Shown here one piece after another: positions 21,299-64,000 of a DNA stretch of 64,000 bases. How positions within the stretch are numbered: position 1 is the stretch's first letter; the number at the start of each line of letters is the position of its first letter. The notes below the pieces were generated by a model. The model was given only the letters and a program-made list of their open reading frames with translations, was not told the origin of the DNA and did not search any database. The position numbers and the translations under genes are program-made. The stretch comes from Paeniglutamicibacter gangotriensis Lz1y (lineage in GTDB: Bacteria > Actinomycetota > Actinomycetes > Actinomycetales > Micrococcaceae). The DNA lies in NCBI RefSeq assembly GCF_000348945.1, contig NZ_AOCK01000001.1, forward strand, positions 124,001 through 188,000, in the 5' to 3' direction.

Positions 21299-22600
21299 GT
21301 GAACGATCATGAGCCGCAACCAAGTACCGGTGTAGCACCAAGCCACCTCGAAGCCCACGGCGCGTCGGCCGGAGAGATGGTGCTGCGCGTCCTGCGCGTG
21401 GGGTTGCACGTCGGTTTCGCCGTGCTGCTGGGCGTCGGACTCATCCGCGTGCTGCTCTCCGAACCGAGCCTGGGCCGGCGGCTGATAGCCGTCGTCCTGA
21501 CCCTGCTGCTTGCCGCGCTATACCTGGCCGGGACTTTGGCGGAGAAACGCCATGCCGCGGGCCGGGCGCCGAGCACCGTGCGCTGGGCCAAGTGGTGGCT
21601 CGGCGGGGTTGTGTTGCTGTGGATCGTGCTGCTCTACCTGCACGCGGATTTCTCCTGGCTGGCGTTCCCGCTCTTCTTCCTACACTTACATATCTTGGGC
21701 CAACGCCACTCACTGATTGCCGTCGGACTGCTCACCGCCGCAGTCGTTGCCGCCGGCGGGTACCACTCCGGATCCCTCGCCCTACCGCAGATCCTGGGCC
21801 CGCTGGTCGGAGCCATCTTCGCCGTCATCATGGGCATGGCCTACCGTGCGCTGTACACCGAGGGTGTGAACCAGCGCCTGGCACTGGATGAATTGCGGGC
21901 CACCCGTGCGGCGCTGGCCGCCGAACAACACCGCGCCGGCACCCTGGCCGAACGCACCCGCCTGGCCCGTGAAATCCACGACACCCTCGCCCAGGGGCTT
22001 TCCAGCATCGTGCTGGTCTCCCGATCGGCCTCCGCCGCCCTGGAATCGGGGGACACCGCCGCGGCCGCAGAACGACTTGAAACCATCGGGGAAACCGCCG
22101 CCGAGAATCTGGCCGAGGCTCGCGATTTCGTCGCCGACCTGTCCTCGGCCGGCGACGGGGCCCGTTCCCTGGCCGGCCGGCTACGCCGGCTGTGCACCTC
22201 CACCGAACGCGCCGCCGCCGCTGCGGGCCACGGCTTCGAGGTGGTTTTTCGGCAGGACGGTTCGGCCACCGCACTACCGACGGAGGTTTCCGCCGCGCTG
22301 TGGCGTGCCGCCCAGTCCGGGCTGGCCAACGTCGCCGCGCACGCGCACGCCAAACATGCGGTGATCAGCCTCGGCTACCTGCCCGATGCCGTCACCCTGG
22401 ACATCTTTGACGACGGGTCCGGCATGGACACCGGCGAAATCCCGGCCAAGCCGCGCGCCGACGGCACCGGCTACGGGCTGGTCGGATTGCGTGAACGCCT
22501 GGACCTGCTCGCCGGATCCTTGGAAATCGAATCGGCACCCGGGGAAGGGACGGTCCTGGCCGTCCGCATCCCCCTCACCACCGAAGAAAGCAGCCTGTGA
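21299..22600 (+). CDS. sensor histidine kinase, DesK/NarX-type (repeat unit 1)
   Basis: A 433-residue kinase with about five N-terminal membrane helices (residues 33-185), a short coiled coil, the HisKA_3 H-box LAREIHDTLAQGLSSIV (His about 227) and a HATPase domain with DIFDDGSGMD and GYGLVGLRERL. It should phosphorylate the regulator encoded next, whose start overlaps its stop (TGATG). The GTG start at 21299 is chosen because the degenerate paralogue in unit 2 is homologous from this point (GTGAAC); no strong ribosome binding site is seen. This is the only one of the three related kinases that keeps its H-box. Confidence 0.85.
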   Translation: MNDHEPQPSTGVAPSHLEAHGASAGEMVLRVLRVGLHVGFAVLLGVGLIRVLLSEPSLGRRLIAVVLTLLLAALYLAGTLAEKRHAAGRAPSTVRWAKWWLGGVVLLWIVLLYLHADFSWLAFPLFFLHLHILGQRHSLIAVGLLTAAVVAAGGYHSGSLALPQILGPLVGAIFAVIMGMAYRALYTEGVNQRLALDELRATRAALAAEQHRAGTLAERTRLAREIHDTLAQGLSSIVLVSRSASAALESGDTAAAAERLETIGETAAENLAEARDFVADLSSAGDGARSLAGRLRRLCTSTERAAAAAGHGFEVVFRQDGSATALPTEVSAALWRAAQSGLANVAAHAHAKHAVISLGYLPDAVTLDIFDDGSGMDTGEIPAKPRADGTGYGLVGLRERLDLLAGSLEIESAPGEGTVLAVRIPLTTEESSL

Positions 22601-23235
22601 TGCCTAACCTGAAGATCATGTTGGTCGATGACCACCCCGTGGTGCGCGCTGGCCTGCGCGCCGTGCTCACCGAACAGGGCGGACTCTCGGTGCTGGCAGA
22701 GGCCGCGGACGGAGCCGCGGCATTGGCCCAGCTCGAACGGCTGAAGACGCTGGGCAAGCAGGTGGACGTGGTACTCATGGACCTGCAGATGGACGGGATG
22801 GACGGGGTCACCGCGACGTCCCGCATCCGTGCGCAGAATGGCCCCCCGGTGCTGATCTTGACTACCTACGACTCGGATGCGGACATCCGTGCGGCACTCG
22901 ATGCCGGGGCCGCGGGTTACCTACTCAAGGATGCCCCGCTACCCGAGGTGCTGGCCGCGGTCGAGGCGGCAGCAGCCGGGGGACAAGTGCTCTCGGCGGA
23001 TATCGCCGCCCGCATCACCCCCGAGGCCCGCGCCAACACCACGGATTTGAGCCCACGCGAACTCGAATTGCTGCAGCTGCTGGCCCGCGGACAAAGCAAC
23101 AAGGAAATCGCCGCGGAATTGTTCATTTCCCAGTCCACGGTCAAGACGCACCTGATCCACATCTACGACAAGCTGGGGGTGGATAACCGCACCGCGGCGA
23201 TCGACAGGGCGCGGGGGAACCGGCTGATCCGCTAA
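22600..23235 (+). CDS. NarL/LuxR-family response regulator (repeat unit 1)
   Basis: A 211-residue regulator: receiver domain with acidic pair DD (10-11), phospho-acceptor Asp61 in VVLMDLQMDGMDG, Thr in LILTTYD and Lys in YLLKDAPL; C-terminal LuxR helix-turn-helix (ELELLQLLARGQSNKEIAAELFISQSTVKTHLIHIYDKL). Translation is coupled to the upstream kinase (TGA and ATG share an A). Its paralogue in unit 2 is nearly the same protein. Targets unknown; the adjoining transporter and phosphatidyltransferase genes are candidates. Confidence 0.9.
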   Translation: MPNLKIMLVDDHPVVRAGLRAVLTEQGGLSVLAEAADGAAALAQLERLKTLGKQVDVVLMDLQMDGMDGVTATSRIRAQNGPPVLILTTYDSDADIRAALDAGAAGYLLKDAPLPEVLAAVEAAAAGGQVLSADIAARITPEARANTTDLSPRELELLQLLARGQSNKEIAAELFISQSTVKTHLIHIYDKLGVDNRTAAIDRARGNRLIR

Positions 23236-29574: not shown

Positions 29575-30333
29575 ATGCATCGATTCACGGGCCGGAGCCG
29601 GCACCAGGCGCTCACGGATGTGCTGTGCGCCATCGGGGGCTCCGTGGTGCTCGGTGCCGTGTTGGTGCACTTCGGGAAGGTCCCCTGGTGGGAAGGCCTT
29701 GCCGCGGTGGCCGGCGGACTGGCGTTGGTCTCCGTTAGCGTTCTGAACATCGTGCGGCGCGATCCCATGTTCTCGACCGCGGCGGACCGGGTGACGCTGA
29801 GCCGCGCCGTGCTCGGCGGCGGCTGCGCCACCCTCATCGTATTAGCAGCCCTGGGATCGGACCAGCACCGCTCGTGGTGGCTGGTTCTGCTGGCCGGTCC
29901 CGCGGTCTTGCTTGATGCCGTTGACGGGGCCGTGGCCAGGAGAACCGGCACCGCCTCGGCACAGGGTTCGAGACTGGACATGGAGACCGATGCCGCGCTG
30001 ATGTTGGTGCTCTCGGTGCCTTTGGCCTTCACGCTCGGGCCATGGGTGCTGGCGATCGGTTTGATGCGATACGGGTTCGTTGCGCTTTCCTGGCGGCGTC
30101 CCGCGCTGCAGGCGCCGCTGGAGTTCAGCCGGTTCCGCCGGATCGTGGCAGCCATCCAATCCGTGGTCCTTGTTGCTGCGCTGGTCCCCAGCGTACCCGT
30201 GCCCCTGGCCACGGCCACCGTGGCGTTCAGCCTGGCGCTGCTGGTCACGTCGTTTGCCCGCGATGTCGTCACCTTGGAACGCAGGCAAGGCTCCGGGACG
30301 GCCGAGGGAAAATCGGTGGACGGGCACATCTAG
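29575..30333 (+). CDS. CDP-alcohol phosphatidyltransferase family protein (unit 1)
   Basis: A 252-residue membrane protein with about six helices. It carries the family's metal-binding signature, D-x2-DG-x2-AR-x8-9-G-x3-D-x3-D, as LLDAVDGAVARRTGTASAQGSRLDMETDA (about residues 102-130), so it should transfer a phosphatidyl or phospho-alcohol group between a CDP-alcohol and an acceptor. Ribosome binding site AGGGGAGGAG is very strong. A close paralogue in unit 2 lies directly behind a response regulator. Specific lipid product unknown. Confidence 0.88.
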   Translation: MHRFTGRSRHQALTDVLCAIGGSVVLGAVLVHFGKVPWWEGLAAVAGGLALVSVSVLNIVRRDPMFSTAADRVTLSRAVLGGGCATLIVLAALGSDQHRSWWLVLLAGPAVLLDAVDGAVARRTGTASAQGSRLDMETDAALMLVLSVPLAFTLGPWVLAIGLMRYGFVALSWRRPALQAPLEFSRFRRIVAAIQSVVLVAALVPSVPVPLATATVAFSLALLVTSFARDVVTLERRQGSGTAEGKSVDGHI

Positions 30334-31072
30334 TTCAACGGATGGGGTTGAAAAACGACCTGGAATACAACCCGGCGCGATGCCCCGGAATTGAAAGCGT
30401 TGTCTTGGTGAACACCAGGGACCACGGATGCGATGTCCGTGCCGCAGGGTTTCCACGGCTCGAACAACGTCAGCCACACATCACAAGTGCCCTGCCATAG
30501 ACGGCGCTCGTGGTGCGCAGCGCTTCCCGGTGGGCGCCGGGAGAACCGGTGGCCCAGCGACCCCAGGCAGTTTCAGGAGCCGGTCCTCCAAGGCATGATC
30601 CACCGACCGGCGAGGAACCCCTCTGCAATGCCAGTCCGCGGTGGCACCAGCGACTGCGGCCCGCCAGGAGCTAAAGGCGGGACCAATGACAGGCACTAGC
30701 GTCACAGTTCGCCAGAAGTCCTTGGCCTCCTTGAGGCGTGAAGTCTCCGGGCGAGCCAGGTCCAAGTGCGTGAGCCCACGAGCGCGGCGTATACCGCGCC
30801 GGGGCAGATCGCCCAAATGCGCGCTTGGGCAGAGAATCCATACCATTTGTCTTTCATCATGGTTCCACTGCCGCACCGCGGTGACGATCTTGGCGATCAA
30901 CCCATCGAACCGATGGGTCTTCGCGTGTCACCGGTGACATTCCATCCGGGGCGCGTTCGAGTTCCCCGCGCTCAGCAGAAGCACGGGACCAACGCCGGGA
31001 AGACCGATTCATCGTGTTTTTTCAGGACCCAACCCAGTGGGGTTTTCCGGCACGCGCGCTCAACGTGGGCTC
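30334..31072. other. 739-base intergenic stretch, longer than in unit 2
   Basis: The corresponding gap in unit 2 is only 224 bases. Both ends resemble that gap (GTTGGTGAACACC near 30410, and the segment running into AACGTGGGCTCATG at 31060-31075), so about 0.5 kb in the middle is extra. A 139-codon minus-strand frame (30481-30900) lies there but matches no family I recognise. Confidence 0.5.
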
Positions 31073-31930
31073 ATGACAACGCCGGATGCCGGACAGTGGC
31101 CCTCGACACCCCGGGAAGGCACCACTCCCAGGACACGGAATCCGAGGAAGCGTACCTGCCACACAAGTGGTCGGCGTCATGGGTTCTGGTGATCGGTTTG
31201 GGCATGATCATCCCGGGCGGCACTATCGTCGGGGTGGCGTTGCCGAGCATCATCACCAGCCTCGATCTGGAGCTCACCGAGGCCCAGTGGATCAACAGCA
31301 CCTACTCGGTCGTGTTCGTGGCACTGTTGCCCTCCACTGGACGGAGCGGTAACCGGCTGGGTCGGAAACGATTGTTCATCGCCGGTACGGCGATCTTCGT
31401 GGTCGGTTCCACCCTGGCTGCACTCTCGGGTTCATCCCCGCTGCTGCTCGCTCGGGTGGTGCAGGGAATCGGTGGATCGATGGTGCTTCCCGCCAACCTG
31501 TCCACCAGCAACGCCGTCTTGCGCGGCAAGGACCGCGCTGCGGCCTTTGGGGTCTGGGGTCTGGGGTGCAACCATGTCCGGGGCCGCCGCCGTGGGGCCG
31601 TTGCTCGGTGGCCGGCTCGCCGGGTCTTTCTCCCGGGAGCGGATCTTCCTGGTCAATGTGCCGATCGGGGTGGCCGTGGTCTTCGCGATCATCGAGAGAC
31701 CCTCCAGGGGATGACGGGCGCCTACGCGGGACGCAACGGTCCTGTTCCGGACCTGGCCCCAAAGCGCCGCCGCTTCTCCGGTTCCAGTGATCGGGTTGCT
31801 CGGCCTGGTGGCGATCGCGGTCTTTTTGCTGTGGGACCGGCAGCGCGATAAAGTACGGCGCTCGGCACTGGTGGACCTCTCGCTGTTCAGCCTGCCCCGA
31901 TTCAGCTGGGGCAACATGACCGCTGCCACG
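31073..31930 (+). pseudogene. broken DHA2-type MFS exporter (unit 1 copy)
   Basis: This copies the first half of the intact exporter at 37488. Compared with that gene it has a net 4-base loss in the first 60 bases, a net 7-base gain from a repeated GGGGTCTG near 31551-31566, a loss of about 108 bases near 31675, and then a sudden end in the middle of the gene (near 31930), where it joins the end of a DUF2871 gene. Motifs such as DGTIVGVALP (here GGTIVGVALP) and GRKRLFIAGTAIF are still readable. It cannot make a working transporter. Confidence 0.88.
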
Positions 31931-31974
31931 GCATGCAGCGCACGAAGCAGCCCTGGGAACGCGTCTCGGCGTAG
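31927..31974 (+). pseudogene. 3' remnant of DUF2871 gene (unit 1)
   Basis: The last 48 bases match the end of the intact DUF2871 gene (43755-43802), reading HGMQ..KQP.E.VSA-stop in the old frame. It is fused directly to the truncated MFS gene, marking a deletion that removed the region equivalent to about 38.45-43.75 kb of unit 2. Confidence 0.8.
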
Positions 31975-32045
31975 TCCCAGCGGCACCGAATTTCCGTGTT
32001 CGGGCCAAGTCCGTACGTGCCTAACAGGAAAATGCGGTGGCCAAC

Positions 32046-32079
32046 GAGAAGGTCCGCTGACTCTTTGAGTCACCTTTTC
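32046..32079 (+). promoter_or_regulatory. covarying leader hairpin upstream of the ubiB remnant (unit 1)
   Basis: Outer stem GAGAAGGT/ACCTTTTC and inner stem GACTC-TTT-GAGTC. In unit 2 the inner stem is GACCC/GGGTC: the C-to-T change on one side is matched by G-to-A on the other, so pairing is conserved. Confidence 0.55.
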
Positions 32080-32137
32080 CATCGTGCTGGCTGACGCATT
32101 ACGGTGTAGAGATACTTTGACAACAATGGGAGCCATC

Positions 32138-32179
32138 ATGATTCTTTGCCACCTTCGCCTACCAGGGTCCCCGTCCTGA
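32138..32179 (+). other. 13-codon upstream ORF before the ubiB remnant (unit 1)
   Basis: Reads MILCHLRLPGSPS-stop behind GGGAG, and its TGA shares an A with the ATG of the following ubiB fragment. It is identical to the one in unit 2. Confidence 0.5.
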
Positions 32180-32379
32180 TGGCCATTTTGGGTGTGCTGC
32201 TGGCGGTTCTGCTGGCCATCACGGGATTGCTTTTCCTGGTGCTTCAATCGTGGTTGGCCGACACCGTGGTTCGCCGTGTGGTGGGCGTGCCCATTGGCTG
32301 GCCGCGCTCCATCGTTGTGGGTTTCGTGATGAGTGTTGCCATGGGATTAACAGTGCAATATCTTTTTCGTGCATGTTAA
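32179..32379 (+). pseudogene. 5' remnant of ubiB/ABC1 kinase gene (unit 1)
   Basis: About 190 bases nearly identical to the start of the intact gene at 44007, covering the first membrane helices (MAILGVLLAVLLAITGLLFLVLQSW...). Similarity stops after TTTTTCGTGC, where a stop codon soon follows. The whole kinase domain is missing. Confidence 0.85.
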
Positions 32380-33540: not shown

Positions 33541-33999
33541 ACTTCACCTTCTCACCTGTGCGCGCCGTGTGCATCAACCAAAAGGTTGGCTCTCCCGGCC
33601 CCGACGGCCGTTTTTGCGTGGTCACCACTGAGCTTCGTCGACGGAGCATCCGTGTCGGGATCATCATCGCACAGCGGCCTCTGTGTACTGGGTAGACGTT
33701 TCGGGTGATTCGGGTTCAGCGTGTGTCTGATGGTGTCATTTTCAGTATCTGTCTGCGCCGACGGTGTCGCCCAGAAGCGCTCCAATGCGCTGGCTGTGCC
33801 TCCACCCAAACATGCCGATCGTCTCGCTACCAGTACCGGTCCAAGGAGTCTTGTCCTGCTTGAGCTTGCATGGATCAACCAACCAATTGGAATCACCGAA
33901 ACGAAGCTGACAACTCCCGCAGGGACTGTTTGGATTGAATAGTTCAGTGGCAACCGCGTACGTTCGGCAGTTAGGGATGAAATGAGAGGAGGAGCCGCG
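33541..33999. other. 459-base divergent gap, no gene recognised
   Basis: A minus-strand frame here (up to 34100) overlaps a real gene and resembles nothing. The right edge, GTGGCAAC then TACG-TCGGCAG at 33941-33970, is repeated at 47929-47953 in front of the paralogous small membrane protein and so marks the start of repeat unit 2. Confidence 0.5.
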
Positions 34000-34470
34000 G
34001 TGAGTAGACCTTCAGGGAACCGGGGGCTAGGATCTGGGGCCGTCCAGAATTTCTTCACGATCGCGTTGCGGTCTAGCTGGCGCTGGCTGGCGATGCTCAT
34101 GCTGTTGGTTTCCGCGGCCGCACACTTACCGGTGGTTGGTCCCGGACTGACTGACGCAGTCTATGTCGGTGTTCTCTTTATTATGCTGATCCTTGCAGAT
34201 TTTGTGCTAATCGTCAGGTTGTGGATCCATGACAGTCCAGCCATATGGGTCTTGATGGCCACCATTACTGGTTTGGCGTTATTGGCCTATGTCTTATCGC
34301 GCACGGTGGGATTACCTCAATCGTCGGACTATATCGGGGATTGGGTCTCCCTGCCGGGGCTCGCGTCGATCGCTTCTGAAGCCGTGGGTTGTATCGTCGC
34401 GTTCTTAGTTTTGGTTAGGCTTTTCTCCAACGCACACCGGCCGGGCCAGGTTGGGCCCGCAGCAAGGTGA
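34000..34470 (+). CDS. four-helix small membrane protein (head of unit 2)
   Basis: A 156-residue protein with four helices (about 28-48, 55-78, 85-105, 122-142) and a conserved YVLSRTVGLPQSS-YIGDWVS loop. It has a paralogue of identical length at 47982 (head of unit 3). GTG 34000 is chosen over ATG 33982 because it follows GAGGAGGAG and aligns with the paralogue's start. The loop and helix pattern recall small DUF-type membrane proteins of unknown function. Conserved loop sequence in both copies implies it is or was a functional protein. Confidence 0.72.
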   Translation: MSRPSGNRGLGSGAVQNFFTIALRSSWRWLAMLMLLVSAAAHLPVVGPGLTDAVYVGVLFIMLILADFVLIVRLWIHDSPAIWVLMATITGLALLAYVLSRTVGLPQSSDYIGDWVSLPGLASIASEAVGCIVAFLVLVRLFSNAHRPGQVGPAAR

Positions 34471-34719
34471 TATACGGACAGTAGGAGGCCGGACGTCGTC
34501 CAACCCGTCAACCTGACGGTGCAGTTCGCGTTCATGGGTTGTTTCTACTCGCCTACCGACCCGACACGGCGTCTGTGATCTGAGCTGCGGCTGCGCTCAC
34601 GACGATCGCACTGCCGTGATATTGCGGTTGCTGTCTGAAGACGGCCTTGCGCCCTGGTTTGGATCCATTCCGAACGCCTTATCGGTAATTCCTGGGGTTC
34701 GGTTTGTTGTGCCGGCGCA

Positions 34720-35041: not shown

Positions 35042-35854
35042 GTGAACGTTGATGCCCAGCACCCAAAATTTTTTGGCTTACACAACCCTGTCGAGACCCC
35101 CAAGACATCGCACGAGGAAACGGTGCTGCGTGTGCTGCGTATGGGGTTGTATGTCGGGCTCGCTCGTGTGCTATCACCCGGGCCAGGTCCGGTCCGGGGC
35201 ATCACCGTTACCGCCCCGAATTCCCTGCTCGCCGCGCCGTACCTGGTTGGAACCGTGCAGGAAAAGTGCCATGCCGCCGGTCGGGCACCAAGTACTGTTC
35301 CCTGGGCCAAGTGGGGGCTCTGTGCGGTCGTGGTGTTATGGCTCGTGCTGCTTTACCTGCATGTTGGCTACTCCTGGCTGGCGTTCACGTTGTTCTTCCT
35401 GCACCAGAAAATCCTGGGCCACTGCAATTCGCTTCTCGCCGTCGCGCTACTCACCGTGGGCGTCATCGCCGCCGGCTGGTTCCATTCGGGACCTGCGGTC
35501 CTGGGGCCGGTGATCTGGGCAGTCTTTACAGTAATCATGGGCATGGTCTGCAAGGCGCTGTACACCGAAGACGTGAACCAGCGGGCGGCCCTGGATGAAC
35601 TGCCTGCCACCCGCGCCGCGATCACTGTCGAACAGCACCGCGCAAGGGCTTTGGAAGAACGCACCCGGTTGGCCCGCAAAAACGCTGGAATTCCGACCAA
35701 GCCTCGGTCCGATGGCACCCGAAACGGGCTAATCGGGTTGCATGAGCGGCTGGAATTGCTCGGCGGCACCCTGAAAATCGAATCGGCACCCGGGGAGGGG
35801 ACGGTACTTGCCGTCTGTGTTCCTTACACCATTGAAGAAAGCCAAGGACGATGA
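35042..35854 (+). pseudogene. decayed sensor kinase lacking H-box (unit 2)
   Basis: Homologous to the kinase at 21299 from its GTG start through the membrane helices to ERTRLAR, and again from GIPTKPRSDGT through LHERLELLGGTLKIESAPGEGT to the end. The middle, which would hold the phospho-accepting His, dimerisation helices and the N-box of the ATPase, is deleted in frame. The reading frame is open, so a protein could be made, but it cannot autophosphorylate. Its stop overlaps the start of the following intact regulator (ATGA). Confidence 0.85.
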
Positions 35855-36486
35855 GAAACCTAAAGATCATGCTCGTCGATGACCACCCGGAGGTGCGCGC
35901 AGGCCTACGCGTCGTGCTCACCGAACAAGGCGGACTTCAAGTGCTGGCCGAAGCCGAGGACGGGGCGGCCGCCCTGGCCCAGCTCGAACGACTGGGCACC
36001 CTGGGCCAACGCGTTGACGTGGTGCTGATGGATTTGCAGATGGACGGCATGGATGGAGTAGTAGCCACCAAAAGAATCCGCGCGCGGGGAGGCCCACCGG
36101 TGCTGATCCTAACCACCTATGACTCGGACGCCGACATCCGCGCCGCATTGGACGCCGGAGCTGCAGGATACCTGCTCAAGGACGCACCGCTCGGCGATGT
36201 ACTCGCGGCCGTCGAGGCCGCAGCGAAGGGCGAGCACGTGCTTTCAACTCAGGTCGCAGCGCGCAACGCACCTCAGACCCACACCAACAGGACCGACCTG
36301 AGCCCGCGGGAACGGGAACTGCTGCAACTACTGGCCCGGGGAAACAGCAACAAGGAGATCGCTGCCGAGCTTTTCATCTCCCAATCCACCGTCAAGACGC
36401 ACCTGATCCACATCTACGACAAGCTCGGGGTGGAGAACCGCACTGCAGCGATCGACAGGGCCCGTGGCAACCGGCTGATTCACTAG
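35851..36486 (+). CDS. NarL/LuxR-family response regulator (unit 2)
   Basis: A 211-residue paralogue of the regulator at 22600, the same length and almost the same in the receiver (DD, MDLQMDGMDG, TTYD, LLKDAPL) and in the DNA-binding helix-turn-helix (NSNKEIAAELFISQSTVKTHLIHIYDKL). It is intact although the kinase gene in front of it has lost its H-box, so it must be served by another kinase, most simply the one at 21299. Both regulators would probably bind the same sites. Confidence 0.9.
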   Translation: MRNLKIMLVDDHPEVRAGLRVVLTEQGGLQVLAEAEDGAAALAQLERLGTLGQRVDVVLMDLQMDGMDGVVATKRIRARGGPPVLILTTYDSDADIRAALDAGAAGYLLKDAPLGDVLAAVEAAAKGEHVLSTQVAARNAPQTHTNRTDLSPRERELLQLLARGNSNKEIAAELFISQSTVKTHLIHIYDKLGVENRTAAIDRARGNRLIH

Positions 36487-37263
36487 GTGCATCCGCTCAG
36501 GATCGCGGTGCGCCAATGGACGGACTGGATGAAGCAAGCCGCATTCACTGATGTGCTGTGCACCCTCGTGGGCTCTGTAACGCTGGGCATCGTGCTGGTG
36601 CTGGCTCGAACCGCTCCCGCGGGGGAAAGTATCGCCGCAGTGCTTGGCGGCTTGGCGATGGTCTCCGTCTGCGTGCTGAGCATCATGCGGCGCAAGCCCC
36701 TGTTTTCGACCGTGGCGGACCGGGTGACATTGACCCGTGGGGTGCTCGGTGGCGGTTGCGCCACGATCATCATGTTGGCCATCATGGGCCCGGATCCGCA
36801 CCGCTCGTGGCCGCTGGTGTTTCTGGCCGCCCCCGCAGTGTTGCTGGACGCCGTTGACGGGGCGGTGGCCCGACGCACCGGCACCGCCTCGATACAGGGT
36901 GCGAGACTGGACATGGAAACCGATGCTGCACTGATGCTGGTGCTCTGCGTGCCTTTGGCCTTCGCTTTGGGGCTCTGGGTCATGGGGATCGGACTGATGC
37001 GTTATGGGTTCGTGGCCCTTTCTTGGTGCCGTCCCGCGCTGCGGACGCAGCTGGAATTCAGCCAGTTCCGCCGGGTCGTGTCCGCGATCCAAGCCGTGGC
37101 CTTGGTCATCGCGTTGGTCCCGGTGGTGCCCGAGCTCATGTCCATGGTCATCCTGATCCTGAGCTTGGCCTTGCTCAGCACTTCTTTTCTCCGGGATATC
37201 ATCGTCCTGGAACGTCGGCAAGGCTCCGGATCAGACGGTGTCGCCGAGGCCTCCGACATGTAA
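36487..37263 (+). CDS. CDP-alcohol phosphatidyltransferase family protein (unit 2)
   Basis: A 258-residue paralogue of the protein at 29575, with the full metal-site signature LLDAVDGAVARRTGTASIQGARLDMETDA. GTG 36487 begins directly after the regulator's stop codon, so the two genes are translationally linked here, unlike in unit 1 where 6.3 kb separates them. Six membrane helices are predicted. The pairing with a two-component system suggests regulated change of membrane phospholipids, which is inference. Confidence 0.87.
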   Translation: MHPLRIAVRQWTDWMKQAAFTDVLCTLVGSVTLGIVLVLARTAPAGESIAAVLGGLAMVSVCVLSIMRRKPLFSTVADRVTLTRGVLGGGCATIIMLAIMGPDPHRSWPLVFLAAPAVLLDAVDGAVARRTGTASIQGARLDMETDAALMLVLCVPLAFALGLWVMGIGLMRYGFVALSWCRPALRTQLEFSQFRRVVSAIQAVALVIALVPVVPELMSMVILILSLALLSTSFLRDIIVLERRQGSGSDGVAEASDM

Positions 37264-37487
37264 ACGGTGAATAAGTACCTCAAATTCATCAGGCATCAAG
37301 GTGATGAAACATGGCTCGGGATAGGGGTGGGGCCAACTGCCAGCATCGTAGATCCGGCGTTGGTGAACACCGCGGGTGCCAAGCACATCCATCCTTAGGC
37401 GCAAGGACCGCCTCGAAGGAACCATGTTTCAAGGATGCAAGACCCAATCCATTGGCGATTTCCGGTAGGCGCCGTTAACGTGGGCTC
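37264..37487. other. intergenic region before the MFS exporter
   Basis: 224 bases, no gene. The last 60 bases, ending AACGTGGGCTCATG, are conserved in front of the broken copy at 31073, suggesting they hold the promoter or translation start of the exporter. Confidence 0.4.
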
Positions 37488-39125
37488 ATGAGAACTCCAA
37501 ACTCCGGACAAGCACGCTCGACACCCTGGAAAAGTATGAAGAACTCCGAGGACACAGAGCCCGAGGAAGTGGACCTGCCCCACAAGTGGTCAGCGCTATG
37601 GGTGCTGGCGATCGGCTTGGGAATGATCATCCTGGATGGCACCATCGTCGGAGTGGCGTTGCCGACCATCATCACCAGCCTCGATCTGGACCTCACCGAG
37701 GCCCAATGGATCAACAGCATCTACTCAGTCGTCTTCGCGGCGCTGTTGCTCTCCGCTGGACGGATCGGTGACCGGCTGGGCCGGAAACGTTTGTTCATCA
37801 CCGGCACGTCGATCTTCGTTATCGGGTCCATCTTGGCCGCGCTCTCCGGGTCTTCCACGCTGCTGCTCTTGGCCCGTGTCGTACAGGGAATCGGCGGAGC
37901 GATGGTGCTGCCGGCCACCCTCTCAACGGTCAACGCCGTCTTCCGCGGCAAGGACCGCGCTGCGGCCTTCGGTGTCTGGGGCGCCACCATGTCCGGGGCC
38001 GCCGCCGTAGGTCCGCTGCTCGGTGGCTGGCTCGCAGGCTCCTTCTCCTGGGAATGGATCTTCTGGGTCAACGTGCCGATCGGACTGGCCGTGATCGTGG
38101 CAACGGTGCTGCTGGTCCCGGAGACCAAGGGCAAGGTCACAACCCGAGGCCTCGACGTGGATGGTTTCCAACTCTCGGCCCTGGGCATCGGGGCCGTGGT
38201 CTTCGCGATCATCGAGGGCCCCTCCATGGGGTGGTGGGCTCCAACCCGGGACGCCACGATCCTGTTCTGGACCTGGCCTCAAACCGCCTTCCTCTCTCCG
38301 GTCCCGGTGATCGGACTGCTCGGGCTGGTGGCGATCGCGGTCTTCTTGCTGTGGGAGCGGCACCGTGCCCGAGTACAACGCTCCGCGCTCCTTGACCTCT
38401 CTCTGTTCAGCCTACCTAGGTTCAGTTGGGGAAACGCGACCGCTGCCATGGTTGCGGTCGGCGAGTTCGCGCTCATCTTCGTGCTGCCGCTCTACCTCGT
38501 CTCGGCCCGCGGGCTGGGAGTCATGCAAGCGGGCTTCGTCCTGGCGGCGATGGCAGTCGGAGCGTTCCTCGCCGGCGCCCAGGCACGCCACCTGGCTGCA
38601 CGAATCGGTCCTCCAGCAGTGGTCCTGCTGGGCCTGGGCCTGGAAGTGGTGGGGATCGCGGTGATGGCGTTCCTGCTGGCTCCCACAGTCAGCGTCTGGT
38701 TGATGACCATTCCGCTGGTGATCTACGGACTGGGACTGGGGTTGGCTTCGGCGCAGCTCACCTCTCTGGTGCTCGCCGATGTCTCAACGTCCCAGTCCGG
38801 GCAGGGCTCGGCGACCCAGAGCACGGTGCGCCAAGTGGGCATGGCCATTGGCACCGCCGTCGCCGGAGCATTGCTGTCGATGGGTCTGGGGTTTTACCTC
38901 TCCACCGGGACGCCTTTGGATGAGGCCACCCGGGTCTCTGCCGGCGGCGCCTTGCAGAGCCTGCGCGCCCAAGGAGGACAAGAGGACTTGGTCGCCGAGC
39001 TCAGTGGCCAGTTCGCCCAAGCAACGCAGATGACACTGCTCGGTGCGGTGGCGTTCCTGGTGATGGGCTTGTTGGGAGCTTGGATCATGCTGCGGCTGAG
39101 CAAGCGCAGTGAACAGGCACATTGA
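37488..39125 (+). CDS. DHA2-type MFS drug/lipid exporter (EmrB/QacA family)
   Basis: A 545-residue transporter with 14 membrane helices. Landmarks: motif D1-like LDGTIVGVALPTI (residues about 42-54), motif A GRIGDRLGRKRLFITG, motif B-like LLLARVVQGIGGAMVLPATLS, and motif C-like GAAAVGPLLGGWLAGSFSWEWIFWVNVP. These define proton-coupled DHA2 exporters of drugs, dyes or lipophilic compounds. ATG 37488 is conserved in the broken copy; ATG 37536 is an alternative. An MMPL exporter and a two-component system follow, suggesting a regulated export locus. Confidence 0.9.
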   Translation: MRTPNSGQARSTPWKSMKNSEDTEPEEVDLPHKWSALWVLAIGLGMIILDGTIVGVALPTIITSLDLDLTEAQWINSIYSVVFAALLLSAGRIGDRLGRKRLFITGTSIFVIGSILAALSGSSTLLLLARVVQGIGGAMVLPATLSTVNAVFRGKDRAAAFGVWGATMSGAAAVGPLLGGWLAGSFSWEWIFWVNVPIGLAVIVATVLLVPETKGKVTTRGLDVDGFQLSALGIGAVVFAIIEGPSMGWWAPTRDATILFWTWPQTAFLSPVPVIGLLGLVAIAVFLLWERHRARVQRSALLDLSLFSLPRFSWGNATAAMVAVGEFALIFVLPLYLVSARGLGVMQAGFVLAAMAVGAFLAGAQARHLAARIGPPAVVLLGLGLEVVGIAVMAFLLAPTVSVWLMTIPLVIYGLGLGLASAQLTSLVLADVSTSQSGQGSATQSTVRQVGMAIGTAVAGALLSMGLGFYLSTGTPLDEATRVSAGGALQSLRAQGGQEDLVAELSGQFAQATQMTLLGAVAFLVMGLLGAWIMLRLSKRSEQAH

Positions 39126-43364: not shown

Positions 43365-43802
43365 ATGAACAAACTGTTTTACGCTGCCTTCACCTACATG
43401 GTTCTTGGAGTTCTCTCCGGCCTCTTCTACCGGGAGTTCACCAAGGCCGAGGATTTCCCTGCAGGTGAGTTCACCCAGCTTGGATTGGTCCACACCCATC
43501 TGCTCACCCTGGGCTTCATTGTTCTGCTGATTGTCTTGGCCCTGGATAAGCAGTTCCAGTTCTCCTCGAACAAGCTGTTCTCTTGGTTCTTCTGGACCTA
43601 CAACCTCGGCGTGGTGCTGACTTCCGCCATGATGGTTTGGCACGGTTCATTGACCGTGCTCGGTAAGGAATCTTCGTCGATGATTGCCGGTATCGCCGGC
43701 TTGGGCCATATCTTCTTGACGATCGGCATGGTCCTGTTTTTCCTGGCCCTGCGCCACGGCATGCAGCACACAAAGCAACCCCTGGAGAGCGTCTCGGCGT
43801 AG
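43365..43802 (+). CDS. DUF2871 family membrane protein
   Basis: A 145-residue protein with four helices. It matches DUF2871 by FYAAFTYMVLGVLSGLFYREFTK, the HTHLLTLGF segment with two histidines in a helix, and SAMMVWHGSLTVLG. The helix histidines resemble those of heme-copper oxidase-like small proteins, but no function is established. Only the 3' end survives in unit 1. Confidence 0.82.
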   Translation: MNKLFYAAFTYMVLGVLSGLFYREFTKAEDFPAGEFTQLGLVHTHLLTLGFIVLLIVLALDKQFQFSSNKLFSWFFWTYNLGVVLTSAMMVWHGSLTVLGKESSSMIAGIAGLGHIFLTIGMVLFFLALRHGMQHTKQPLESVSA

Positions 43803-43811
43803 TCCCAGCGG

Positions 43812-43867
43812 CACCGCATTTCCGTGTTCGAACTAAGTCCGTACGTGCCTAACAGGAAAATGCGGTG
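43812..43867 (+). promoter_or_regulatory. long-range hairpin in the DUF2871-ubiB gap
   Basis: CACCGCATTTCC pairs with GGAAAATGCGGTG (one bulged A) across a 31-base loop just after the DUF2871 stop. The unit 1 copy has a mismatch (CACCGAATTTCC), so its importance is unclear. It may end DUF2871 transcription. Confidence 0.4.
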
Positions 43868-43873
43868 GCTAAC

Positions 43874-43907
43874 GAGAAGGTCCACTGACCCCGCGGGTCA
43901 CCTTCTC
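43874..43907 (+). promoter_or_regulatory. covarying leader hairpin upstream of ubiB (unit 2)
   Basis: Outer stem GAGAAGGT/ACCTTCTC, five unpaired bases on the 5' side, inner stem GACCC-CGC-GGGTC. The inner stem changes to GACTC/GAGTC in unit 1, a compensated change. There is no T tract, so a regulatory or processing role is as likely as termination. Confidence 0.55.
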
Positions 43908-43918
43908 CATCGTGCTGG

Positions 43919-43946
43919 CTGACGCATTACGGTGTAGAGATACTTT
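43919..43946 (+). promoter_or_regulatory. possible promoter of the uORF-ubiB transcript
   Basis: CTGACG, 16 bases, TACTTT, conserved without change in unit 1. The spacing suits a housekeeping promoter about 20 bases before the small upstream ORF. Weak match, so tentative. Confidence 0.3.
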
Positions 43947-43965
43947 GACAACAATGGGAGCCAAC

Positions 43966-44007
43966 ATGATTCTTTGCCACCTTCGCCTACCAGGGTCCCC
44001 GTCCTGA
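43966..44007 (+). other. 13-codon upstream ORF coupled to ubiB
   Basis: ATG 43966 follows GGGAG by six bases and encodes MILCHLRLPGSPS; its TGA (44005-44007) shares the A with the ubiB ATG. The peptide is identical in unit 1. This looks like a translated leader that feeds ribosomes to ubiB. Confidence 0.55.
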
Positions 44008-46022
44008 TGGCCATTTTGGATGTGCTATTGGTGGTTCTGCTGGCCATCGCGGGATTGCTTTTCCTGATGCTTCAATCGTGGTTGGCCGCCACCGTGGTTC
44101 GCCGTGTGGTGGGCGTGCCCATTGGCTGGCCGCGCTCCATCGTTGTGGGTTTCGTGATGAGTGTTGCCATGGGATTCACAGTGCAATATCTTTTTCGTGC
44201 CGGGACCGACCAAAACACCAACGGCCTGAACGTAGCCCCCTCGGTGGCCGTCTTGTTTCTCATCCTGGCGATGGGCTGGATTTTTGCCTTGGGCGTTGCC
44301 GCCCTGGTGTTCATTGAGGCAGCCTTTCCCACCGGTTCATTGCCCACGTTTTCCTCGTTTTTCACCGGCGGCAAGGCTCGGCGGCAACGCTCGCGCCGGT
44401 ACACCGAAATCCTCTCCATCGCAGTCCGCCACGGGTTAGGCTCCCGGCTCCGCGGCTTCGGGCAAGCTGGTCTCGACGAGCACGAGGCCAAGACGGCCCG
44501 TGCGTTGCGCAACGCGTTGAACGAAGCAGGAGTCACGTTCGTCAAGCTCGGGCAGATGCTCTCCACCCGGCGGGACCTGCTGCCGGCGGTCTACATCCGG
44601 GAACTGCAGACCTTGCAGACCAATGCGAGCCCGGAACCGTGGGAAAAGATTATGGCAGCGGCCGAGGAACAGCTCGGGCGGCCGCTATCGGAAATCTTTT
44701 CCGAAGTGGACCCGACACCGCTGGCCGCCGCCTCCGTAGCTCAGGTGCACCAAGCCGTGCTGTGGGACGGGACAGCAGTGGTCCTGAAAGTCCAGCGCCC
44801 CGGCGCGCTGGCGCAGGTCAATCTGGACACGGACATCATCATCCGATTGGCCAAGTGGTTGGACAAGACCACACCGTGGGGCAGCTCGCTGGGCGTGCAT
44901 GAGCTGGCACGCGGTTTCGCTACATCCCTCGAGGAGGAACTGGACTACACCATCGAACTGGAGAACATGCGCACCATTGAGCATGCCCTGGATGCAGGAA
45001 CGTTCGCAGTGACCGTTCCGCACGCCTACGAGGAACTTTCCAGCGAACGCCTCCTGGTCATGGATCGGTTGCCAGGGCGCCCAGTGAGCTCGGCCGGAAA
45101 GATCCTGGCGAATCTCACGGACGCCGAACGCAGCGCCCTGGCAGCCACCTTGCTGGGTGTGACGCTGCAACAAATCATTTCCGACGGGGTCTTCCACGGC
45201 GACCTTCACGCCGGGAACATCTTCATCACCCCGGAAGGAACGCTGGGTCTGTTGGACTTCGGAGCCGTGGGACGCTTGGATCCCGGGACGCAAACAGCGT
45301 TGGGGATGATGCTTTATTCGATCGACAAAAATGATGCTGCCGGGGCCACCGATGCGCTCATTGAACTTCTTGATCGGCCCGAGGACCTTGATGTGAGAGT
45401 TGTGGAGCGTTCCCTGGGACAGCTCCTTACCCGCTTTCGCAGCGGATTTCGTGCAGGTGGCAGCCAAAAGATGTTTAGTGAGCTGTTCGCGCTGATCATC
45501 GCGCATAAATTCTCCGTACCGGCTCAGATCGGTGCCGCCTTCCGGGCTTTGTCCACAGTTGAGGGCACCTTGATGTTGATCGACCCGCGAATGGACCTGG
45601 TGACCGCTGCCCGAACCGAGGGCAGCCGTCTGATGTCGGGGAGATTCAGTCTTGGTAGTCTCAAGGACAGCCTTGAGCAACGTCTTGTTTCCCTGGTGCC
45701 GCTGCTCAATCGTCTCCCGCGTCGGATGAATAAGATCAGCGAAGATCTGGAGCACGGTCGCTTCTCCATGAACGTGCGCATGTTGGCCCATGCTGCCGAC
45801 CGCCGCTTCCTCACCGGGTTGTTCCAGCAGCTCGTCGTCGCGGTGCTGGCTGGCGCTGCGGTGCTCGGTGCCATCACACTCATTGTGAGCAATGAGGGTC
45901 CCTTGCTGACCGGCGAAATCCACCTCTATGCGGTCTTTGGCTTCGCTCTGCTCTTTGGTGGCTTTGTGCTGGGCATGCGTAGCCTGATGCTGGTCTTTAA
46001 GCGGGATGACGATGAGGATTGA
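44007..46022 (+). CDS. UbiB/ABC1/ADCK-family atypical kinase, membrane-anchored
   Basis: A 671-residue protein. Residues 1-125 form about three helices; the ABC1 kinase-like domain follows, with the KxGQ motif FVKLGQMLSTRRDLLP, the A-rich loop AAASVAQVHQAVL, VVLKVQRPG, EELDYTIELENMRTI, the catalytic-loop FHGDLHAGNIF and LLDFGAVGRL; two helices close the C-terminus. ADCK/UbiB proteins are linked to quinone or lipid homeostasis. The ATG 44007 start is coupled to a 13-codon leader; TTG 43974 is an alternative. A decayed copy lies at 32179. Confidence 0.9.
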   Translation: MAILDVLLVVLLAIAGLLFLMLQSWLAATVVRRVVGVPIGWPRSIVVGFVMSVAMGFTVQYLFRAGTDQNTNGLNVAPSVAVLFLILAMGWIFALGVAALVFIEAAFPTGSLPTFSSFFTGGKARRQRSRRYTEILSIAVRHGLGSRLRGFGQAGLDEHEAKTARALRNALNEAGVTFVKLGQMLSTRRDLLPAVYIRELQTLQTNASPEPWEKIMAAAEEQLGRPLSEIFSEVDPTPLAAASVAQVHQAVLWDGTAVVLKVQRPGALAQVNLDTDIIIRLAKWLDKTTPWGSSLGVHELARGFATSLEEELDYTIELENMRTIEHALDAGTFAVTVPHAYEELSSERLLVMDRLPGRPVSSAGKILANLTDAERSALAATLLGVTLQQIISDGVFHGDLHAGNIFITPEGTLGLLDFGAVGRLDPGTQTALGMMLYSIDKNDAAGATDALIELLDRPEDLDVRVVERSLGQLLTRFRSGFRAGGSQKMFSELFALIIAHKFSVPAQIGAAFRALSTVEGTLMLIDPRMDLVTAARTEGSRLMSGRFSLGSLKDSLEQRLVSLVPLLNRLPRRMNKISEDLEHGRFSMNVRMLAHAADRRFLTGLFQQLVVAVLAGAAVLGAITLIVSNEGPLLTGEIHLYAVFGFALLFGGFVLGMRSLMLVFKRDDDED

Positions 46023-47894: not shown

Positions 47895-47981
47895 CTTTAG
47901 ATGAGTCAACACGTTTCCTTGAAAAGTGCGGTGGCAACGGGGTACGGTCGGCAGGAGACCGAGTGGGTAGGGGGAGTCGTT

Positions 47982-48452
47982 ATGAGTAGTCCTGCGGTAA
48001 GCCGAGGGCCGGGGTCCGGGCCCGTTCACGATTTCTTCACTATCGCTCTGCGGTCTGGCTGGCGCTGGTTGGCCATGTCCATGCTGTTGGTTTCCGCGCT
48101 GGCGCACACCACGGTGGTTGCTCCCGGGCTGGCTGAAACAACTTATATGGGTGTGCTTTTCATTGGGCTGATCCTTGCCGATTTGATGCTGATCGCCGCG
48201 TTGTGGATCCGTGACAGCCCAGCCATGTGGACCTTGACCGCCATCATCACCGGGTTGGCGTTTCTGGCGTATGTCTTATCGCGTACGGTGGGACTGCCGC
48301 AATCCTCCGGCTACATCGGGGACTGGGTCTCGGGGCCGGGCCTCGCGTCAATCGCTTCTGAAGCCGTGAGCTGTATCGTCGCGCTATGGGTCTTAACCAG
48401 ACACTTCACTCGCGCACGCCAGCCCAGCCACGTCCCACCCGTGTCCGGGTGA
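47982..48452 (+). CDS. four-helix small membrane protein (head of unit 3)
   Basis: A 156-residue paralogue of the protein at 34000, sharing HDFFTIALRSGWRWLAM, the GVLFI-LILADL helix, YVLSRTVGLPQSSGYIGDWVS and IASEAVSCIVAL. ATG 47982 is preceded by AGGGGGAG. The IS element ends 88 bases upstream. Function unknown, but two copies of equal length with an intact frame suggest selection. Confidence 0.75.
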   Translation: MSSPAVSRGPGSGPVHDFFTIALRSGWRWLAMSMLLVSALAHTTVVAPGLAETTYMGVLFIGLILADLMLIAALWIRDSPAMWTLTAIITGLAFLAYVLSRTVGLPQSSGYIGDWVSGPGLASIASEAVSCIVALWVLTRHFTRARQPSHVPPVSG

Positions 48453-48465
48453 GATACGGAGAATA

Positions 48466-48700
48466 GGGTGGCGCAAGCGGTCGAGCAGCACCGCGACAGG
48501 AACCTTGCCGAGCGCACACATCTGGCCCTGGGTTTATCCAGCATCGCGCTGGTCTCCCGCGCGGCATCCGTCGCCCCGAACACGGGGGTCATCGAAGCCG
48601 TTGCTCAACGCCTTGACACCATCGCGGGACCGCTGCTGGGAACCTTGCCGACGCCCGGAACGTTGTCGCTGTCCTTTGCTCGGTTGGGGACGGGGCAGGC
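48466..48700 (+). pseudogene. third sensor-kinase remnant, H-box deleted (unit 3)
   Basis: Reads VEQHRDRNLAERTHLA-LGLSSIALVSRAAS...AVAQRLDTIAG, matching AEQHRAGTLAERTRLAREIHDTLAQGLSS...AAAERLETIGE of the kinase at 21299. Exactly the REIHDTLAQ segment with the phospho-accepting His is missing. The membrane domain and the ATPase domain are gone as well. Confidence 0.75.
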
Positions 48701-63526: not shown

Positions 63527-63848
63527 CCCGGGGAGGGCCCCCAGTCGTGCCAAGACATTCGAATCCGGTACTTCGATCGCAGGATCTTCGATTCTTACGG
63601 ATCGTGACGGCCTTGGGCGAATAAACTTTGACGAGACCCGCGGCAACCTTCTATCGTGGGTAGTGAATCAAGAGTGCCAACATAAAAGCCCTGGCTTGTT
63701 GACCGGCAACCCTCTCACGGTAGTGGGGTGCTCCAGGTGATGATTCGGCCTTCCGGGACCTCGGAGGCAAATACCGCACACCTGCCCGGGTAGCGCGTGG
63801 ATCGCACGCACCTGGAACCGGTGGGCCGAAACCGAAGGAACGAGCGTT
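63527..63848. other. 322-base gap, no gene seen
   Basis: No ORF with recognisable product. It should contain the promoter of the flavin reductase gene; GGAACGAGCG directly before 63849 is a weak ribosome binding site. Confidence 0.4.
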
Positions 63849-64000
63849 ATGACACTCACCTCTGACCTCTCACCCAATACCCTGCGAAACGTCTTTGCTC
63901 AGCACCCTTCCGGCATTGCCGCGCTCTGCGCCATCGTTGACGGTGCCCCGCAAGGGATTGTGGCCTCATCCTTTACGGTGGGGGTCTCCATGGACCCTCC
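63849..64000 (+). CDS. flavin reductase-like domain protein, 5' part only
   Basis: The window ends after 50 codons. The visible start LSPNTLRNVFAQHPSGIAALCAIVDGAPQGIVASSFTVGVSMDP matches the beginning of FMN-binding flavin reductases (split barrel; the 'PSGVAVVTA...G..ASSF.SVSLDPP' pattern), the small components of two-component flavin monooxygenases. Downstream partners are out of view. Confidence 0.8.
   Translation, partial: MTLTSDLSPNTLRNVFAQHPSGIAALCAIVDGAPQGIVASSFTVGVSMDP

Follow-up and report, generated by a model that had tools for sequence, protein, structure and literature searches.

The window analysed here is a 64,000-nt stretch of the Paeniglutamicibacter gangotriensis Lz1y genome, and its features around the ubiB gene are listed in Table 1. 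The ubiB product is a member of the UbiB/ABC1/AarF atypical kinases, with an ABC1 domain score of 194.2 bits against a Pfam cut-off of 22.9; its nearest named relative, in our named collection, is that of P. antarcticus W2 (L036, 95% protein identity). Between the upstream DUF2871 gene and ubiB lie two inverted repeats, a -10-like element and a short ORF that runs into the ubiB start. The inverted repeat next to DUF2871 may be an end-of-gene structure of that gene; its arms look kept in P. antarcticus, by eye. An Rfam 15 search of 43800-44100 (E up to 1) gave no family match near the leader, and the sole match in the window was a distant SAM-IV riboswitch (63666-63779, 78.9 bits), followed by an ORF that starts at 63849 and runs off the window end.

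Table 1. Features of the ubiB locus and of its partial duplicate (window coordinates)
Feature	Position	Strand	Remark
DUF2871 gene, upstream	43365..43802	+	Pfam E 1.4e-48
Second inverted repeat, 17-nt arms, 88%, 22 nt apart	43812..43867	+	Directly 3′ of the DUF2871 stop
Hairpin or dyad, TGACCCCGCGGGTCA core	43874..43907	+	3′ of the DUF2871 gene, 5′ of the -10-like element
TACGGT, -10-like element TAnnGT	43928..43933	+	38 nt 5′ of the leader ORF; T, A, G, T invariant in 11/11
GGAG, Shine-Dalgarno core of the leader ORF	43957..43960	+	9 nt 5′ of the ORF start; same spacing in 11/11, window included
Leader ORF, 13 codons, MILCHLRLPGSPS	43966..44007	+	TGA stop at 44005-44007; its A is also the first base of the ubiB ATG (44007)
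ubiB, long-form ABC1/AarF/UbiB atypical kinase, 671 aa, hydrophobic N-terminus	44007..46022	+	Pfam ABC1 E 2.6e-57
Unit 2 of the 448-bp duplicated segment, attached to intact ubiB	43753..44200	+	Repeat comparison
Unit 1 of the duplicated segment	31925..32372	+	Repeat comparison
Unit 1 hairpin, TGACTCTTTGAGTCA core	32046..32079	+	Sequence comparison
Unit 1 leader ORF, identical to the unit 2 ORF	32138..32179	+	Sequence comparison
Unit 1 ubiB, cut to 66 codons, then stop	32179..32379	+	Reading frame

Orthologs were collected by whole-genome searches of 15 genomes of the window's genus, of 295 and 395 genomes drawn from the family, and of 23 genomes of a second genus (g24), together with the named collection. 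The scored set consists of the window and 10 distinct close orthologs that keep the 5′ end (76-95% identity), namely that of P. antarcticus and nine in g24; the 11 genomes form one clade. The named members of g24 are labelled Arthrobacter sp. (GMC3 and H35-D1) and were assigned to this genus because their leaders match those of G262 and G122 exactly. Pairs with the same leader, GMC3 (L037)/G262 and G122 (L079)/H35-D1 (L038), were counted once. Two matches that hold a 3′ part of the gene, without the leader, were left out: A. terrae (L039, query 436-669) and a G005 fragment on contig C17 (query 578-669). The latter (G005:C17:14860-15135, in the window's genus) matches just the last 92 codons of ubiB, at 87% identity, and is perhaps the remnant of a lost ubiB gene.

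The 295-genome search matched 34 genomes, 11 of them the close group (the window, G001 of the window's genus, eight of g24 and G122) and 23 more distant; loci were available and surveyed for 20 of these 23, leaving out G022, G107 and G123. The 395-genome family search returned no close ortholog beyond those from the 295-genome search, and a plasmid search returned eight records, all at only 40-42% identity. The close ortholog is accessory, present in 2 of the 15 genomes of the window's genus and in 9 of the 23 of g24. A BLAST search of the 295 family genomes with the leader DNA found the window genome, G001 and eight short matches; of the eight, G246 alone is a true ortholog, while the remaining seven (L043-L049) lie in other contexts, look coincidental and were rejected. 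In Arthrobacter sp. H35-D1 (L038) and in G122 (L079) the ubiB gene is frameshifted after codon 84 in both assemblies, which may reflect a pseudogene or an assembly error; the leader is intact and identical in the two.

The leader ORF is exactly 13 codons long in the window and in all 10 other distinct orthologs. In each of the 11 a GGAG stands 9 nt before its ATG or GTG start, giving the ORF, to judge by its sequence, an initiation signal of its own, and in each the leader stop overlaps the ubiB start by 1 nt (junction TGATG, TAATG or TAGTG). The stop itself varies among TGA, TAA and TAG, and one ubiB start is GTG; the overlap is kept throughout. The earlier note had proposed a coupled 13-codon ORF before ubiB, and its retention in another genus supports that proposal; being kept in the window and all 10 distinct orthologs, the ORF is more than a chance feature. 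The peptides fared otherwise. Written with the first letter as the codon reads, they are MILCHLRLPGSPS, MILCRLLLPGAHC, VNLACTANLPGGN, VNLACTAVVRNGR, MTAVRPHRPGCRR, VHIGPSTSVRGAH, VNVARTSVGRCRF, VVVVSSNLSKCSS, VNAVCGNAGRSLS, VNVVQRVFSRSRS and VNVARTSVSKCQP, and the start is the only residue common to all 11, so the peptide conservation that the note had reported does not reach beyond the recent duplicate in the window.

Changes per site were counted by parsimony on a tree built from ubiB. The ORF interior shows 3.67, 3.58 and 2.00 changes at codon positions 1, 2 and 3 across all 11 genomes, against 0.98, 0.42 and 2.62 in the first 84 codons of ubiB, the codons present in all 11 given the frameshift of H35-D1. 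Without H35-D1 the values are 3.42, 3.42 and 2.00 for the interior against 0.82, 0.41 and 2.52 for ubiB over 499 codons. Because interior positions 1 and 2 change faster than in ubiB, the leader peptide is, on this measure, unconstrained. Changes per site are 0, 0, 0 and 0 in the GGAG, 1, 0 and 0 in the leader start, and 0, 1 and 1 in the leader stop. The interior has taken no indel over at least 111 substitutions. The spacer of 23-25 nt just upstream has taken four length changes over 61 substitutions, and at that ratio the ORF should have taken 7.3 indels (Poisson P about 7e-4, with only four events in the control); this deficit points to a reading frame that is kept. Other coding signals are weak: 484 of 5000 column permutations do as well in the absence of in-frame stops, and 350 of 5000 do as well in GC3 excess. 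The ubiB frame is also stop-free across the same stretch (0/143). An N-terminal extension of ubiB in that frame was rejected, as no in-frame start is shared by the 11 sequences, by eye, and the fastest sites are its would-be second and third codon positions.

Across the alignment, then, the putative load site, start, frame, stop and overlap are conserved and the peptide is not; coupling that is conserved while the peptide sequence is not characterizes a coupled leader ORF. We consider it probable (about 0.78) that the ORF is a sequence-independent leader cistron, translationally coupled to ubiB, and that its ribosomes pass on to ubiB by termination-reinitiation. The ubiB mRNA would start just after TAnnGT, about 25-27 nt before the leader ORF. 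Ribosomes would load at the GGAG Shine-Dalgarno of the ORF, translate its 13 codons, whose sequence would be immaterial, and terminate where the stop codon and the ubiB start have one base in common; there the terminated ribosomes would reinitiate, and most ubiB translation would depend on this reinitiation.

Duplex energies with the anti-Shine-Dalgarno sequence bear on where ribosomes may load. At the ORF start they are steady (-6.5 to -8.1 in all 11), and at the ubiB start they are scattered from -1.7 to -9.4, without a consistent Shine-Dalgarno. The value at the ubiB start is as good as or better than that at the ORF start in G290 (-9.4), G246 (-6.6) and G283 (-7.3), and poorer in the other eight, with moderate values in G221 (-6.2) and G195 (-5.8); direct ubiB initiation is therefore possible in these genomes. 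The steady energy at the ORF start, a leader no more structured than shuffled sequence and the stop/start overlap fit the delivery of terminating ribosomes to ubiB. The arrangement is also rare: when a simple ORF caller was run on 464 kb of the genome, a short ORF of 6-30 codons with a Shine-Dalgarno and a 1-nt overlap preceded 2 of the 219 long ORFs, one of them ubiB, by criteria (energy -6.5 or better) that were fixed after the window had been seen.

A more specific form of the coupled leader cistron, which we find doubtful, would have the length itself locked. The 13 codons (41 nt from start to start) would set how loading and reinitiating ribosomes share the mRNA, and the leader would be a natural bicistronic device, tuned in length and free in sequence, that took the place of direct Shine-Dalgarno initiation at ubiB in the clade ancestor. 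Such a lock is not separable from plain frame keeping, because the nearby length changes are of one base and would be forbidden by the frame alone.

Coupling might instead work by RNA unfolding: leader translation would melt a fold that masks the ubiB start and so let fresh ribosomes load on ubiB. This model of coupling is described by Brown and Wade (PMC12548453), and the ubiB start is indeed partly paired (mean unpaired probability 0.21-0.66), is in 6 of the 11 genomes more closed than the ORF start, and has a fair Shine-Dalgarno in three orthologs. We think it unlikely at this locus, since the leader is no more structured than its mononucleotide shuffles over the 11 genomes (z -1.34 to +1.57), the window's leader has z +1.39 with dinucleotide shuffles, and newly loading ribosomes would find no consistent Shine-Dalgarno at ubiB.

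An attenuator or stalling peptide, whose specific codons, perhaps for Cys, would sense a metabolite or drug and so control ubiB, is far less probable. Cys does occur in 9 of the 11 leader peptides, and a Cys-rich leader ORF precedes cysA2 in mycobacteria (PMC4633059), but its position shifts (4, 5, 11 or 13) and it is absent in G037 and G283; a Cys-sensing peptide was rejected. No residue or codon past the start is common to all 11, and codon positions 1 and 2 of the ORF change faster even than the third positions of ubiB. A scan of 43780-44060 gave no terminator-like site, there was no Rfam match, and the leader stop overlaps the ubiB start, with no terminator/antiterminator arrangement found. 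That the ORF has no function, being a chance frame carried by descent, would account for its shortness and weak coding signals, and overlapping short ORFs do occur at 4 of 20 distant loci; we give this reading very little weight in view of the near-frozen Shine-Dalgarno, start and stop beside a saturated interior, the missing indels and the rarity of the arrangement in the genome (2 of 219 long ORFs).

Distant relatives were surveyed at 20 UbiB loci (49-58% identity; no start was resolved for L065), and none of the 20 has the 13-codon arrangement. A candidate start lies 18-24 nt further upstream in 15 of the 20 loci, with a duplex energy of -8.4 or better in eight of those. Short ORFs overlap a candidate start in four loci, all unlike the 13-codon leader: at the likely start in L062 (9 codons, 1 nt overlap) and L070 (6 or 8 codons, 4 nt), and at unlikely starts in L066 and L068. 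Overlaps can thus arise without the history of this clade, and the leader cistron itself seems, from this survey, to be an invention within the clade.

Coupled leader ORFs are a kind already known from mycobacteria and from engineered designs, and the ubiB leader is a new case. The mycobacterial small ORFs (Shell et al. 2015, PMC4633059) are likewise short and unannotated, with a stop overlapping the downstream start; their placement and coupling are kept between species while the peptide is not, and ribosome delivery was proposed for them. They differ in having leaderless transcripts and a 4-nt RTGA overlap, whereas the ubiB leader has a leadered transcript with a Shine-Dalgarno, a 1-nt overlap and 13 codons in 11/11 of one clade; that comparison covers two species, against 11 genomes here. 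The uPPE2-PPE2 pair of M. tuberculosis (PMC11260477) resembles the ubiB leader by sequence, in that the uORF has a Shine-Dalgarno, the downstream gene has none, and stop and start overlap. PPE2 expression depends on uPPE2 translation, mainly by termination-reinitiation, and removing the uORF start or its Shine-Dalgarno strongly lowers the downstream gene (PMC11260477). As described there, uPPE2 is riboswitch-controlled, with an AUGA overlap and a longer uORF, and the ubiB leader has no riboswitch match.

The same hypothesis, that a leader ORF raises the translation of the next gene, was advanced for leader genes, Actinobacteria included (Korolev et al. 2016, PMC4833913), but those leaders are set apart from the structural gene without overlap, with a distance peak at 10-11 bp, unlike the ubiB leader. 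A term search of the main text of that paper gave no Arthrobacter, Micrococc-, UbiB or ABC1. Translational coupling is reviewed by Brown and Wade 2025 (PMC12548453), where spacings of -4 to +3 nt are among the most efficient for coupling in E. coli, and where a short first cistron hands ribosomes to the gene of interest in bicistronic design vectors; these are engineered, and the ubiB leader is natural. A literature search on UbiB, Arthrobacter and upstream open reading frames returned nothing, by title, on the ubiB leader. Compared over its 11 genomes, the locus is a clean example of a leader ORF in which selection seems to favour that it is translated, whatever peptide results. Use of the called ubiB start may hinge on a cistron so short that routine annotation would miss it, and the leader could serve as a natural bicistronic leader in actinobacterial expression work.

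The earlier note had joined the hairpin to the ORF as a single conserved leader, and here the two parts come apart. The hairpin sequence was seen only in the two Paeniglutamicibacter genomes and in none of the nine other-genus orthologs, so the sister genomes proposed as a refutation, lacking both hairpin and uORF, turned out to lack the former and keep the latter. The hairpin also ends 20 nt before the -10-like element, whose four named bases are invariant in 11/11 at 38-40 nt before the ORF. A sigma-70 consensus scan gave no promoter match there; we infer that TAnnGT is the -10 box of the ubiB promoter, in which case the hairpin, lying upstream of it, probably enters the ubiB mRNA only through read-through.

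The compensated substitutions that the note had seen in the stem reduce to a single pair (43890/43896, C-G to T-A). At a second pair unit 2 has G-C where both unit 1 and P. antarcticus have G-U, and a further one is disrupted in P. antarcticus, where 12 of 13 pairs are possible. The hairpin is indeed present in both copies, but a single double change among three sequences is matched by 177 of 500 shuffles and the fold alone is of modest stability (z -1.55, equalled in 12 of 200 shuffles), so neither covariation nor fold statistics support more than chance. The 60 bases upstream of the -10-like element behave like shuffled sequence in the nine other-genus orthologs (z -1.02 to +2.11), with z -1.54 in the window and -1.62 in P. 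antarcticus. G230 folds at a lower energy than the window (-26.3 against -20.4) and the window z is just -1.54, so energy alone does not separate the genera. One RNA leader element made of hairpin and ORF could claim the compensated pair and the 12 possible pairs in P. antarcticus; given the shuffles, the absence from the other genus, the place upstream of the -10-like element and the different fold that P. antarcticus prefers in wider windows, it is hardly to be expected.

The hairpin looks like a local feature in its own right at the Paeniglutamicibacter locus, most likely tied to the end of DUF2871 or to control at the DNA level. We give roughly even odds to its being either a dyad that acts in the DNA, as an operator immediately 5′ of the ubiB promoter, or a structure that ends the DUF2871 transcript; both are compatible with the coupled leader cistron. 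A perfect dyad, TGACYCNNNGRGTCA, is kept in both copies and in P. antarcticus, the dyad is centred about 47 bp upstream of the transcription start that TAnnGT would set, and the compensated change would fit a dyad in DNA no less than a stem in RNA. However, no terminator-like site was found, and the dyad occurs at only four places in the genome, two of them these copies, against one for a reversed control pattern, with no sign of a regulon; a repeated operator was rejected on this count. In the 3′ flanks of 13 of 27 DUF2871 matches, the hairpin sequence occurred only in the window and P. antarcticus, the 11 others being without it. Several of the other DUF2871 3′ flanks have strong hairpins of their own.

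The two units of the duplicated segment (448 bp) are 93.75% identical without gaps, and both contain the hairpin, the 13-codon ORF and the overlap of the ORF stop with the ubiB start. As the earlier note had it, both copies encode the identical peptide MILCHLRLPGSPS and the unit 1 ubiB is dead. TGA and ATG share an A in both copies, and the frame of the unit 1 gene stays open for 66 codons. A three-way comparison of differing sites sets P. antarcticus apart at 31, copy 1 at 16 and copy 2 at 11, with one three-way site, and searches of the P. antarcticus draft turned up a single copy. This site pattern and the single copy there make it most likely that the unit 1 copy arose after the split from P. 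antarcticus, and an identical peptide in both units therefore needs no special explanation.

The note had argued that an element conserved beside a dead gene implies recent duplication or another use; the site pattern bears out the former, and the latter is not supported. Between the copies the leader ORF is the least changed part (0 of 41 sites differ against 28 of 407 elsewhere, Fisher p 0.095) and the hairpin the most changed (7 of 36 against 21 of 412, Fisher p 0.004). A 114-bp stretch with one difference gives p 0.003, having been picked after it was seen, and the longest identical run (87 bp) lies inside ubiB and not in that stretch. With 28 differences in 448 sites, p 0.095, a post hoc stretch and the longest run elsewhere, conservation despite a dead gene weighs little. 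Older repeats, of 73-82% identity, lie in the window at 21506-23234, 29612-32372, 33935-34485, 35225-38451 and 47919-48696. One copy, at 31023-31931, is similar to the MFS gene (37488-39125), and the younger 94% duplicate is joined to this older MFS-like repeat at about 31925.
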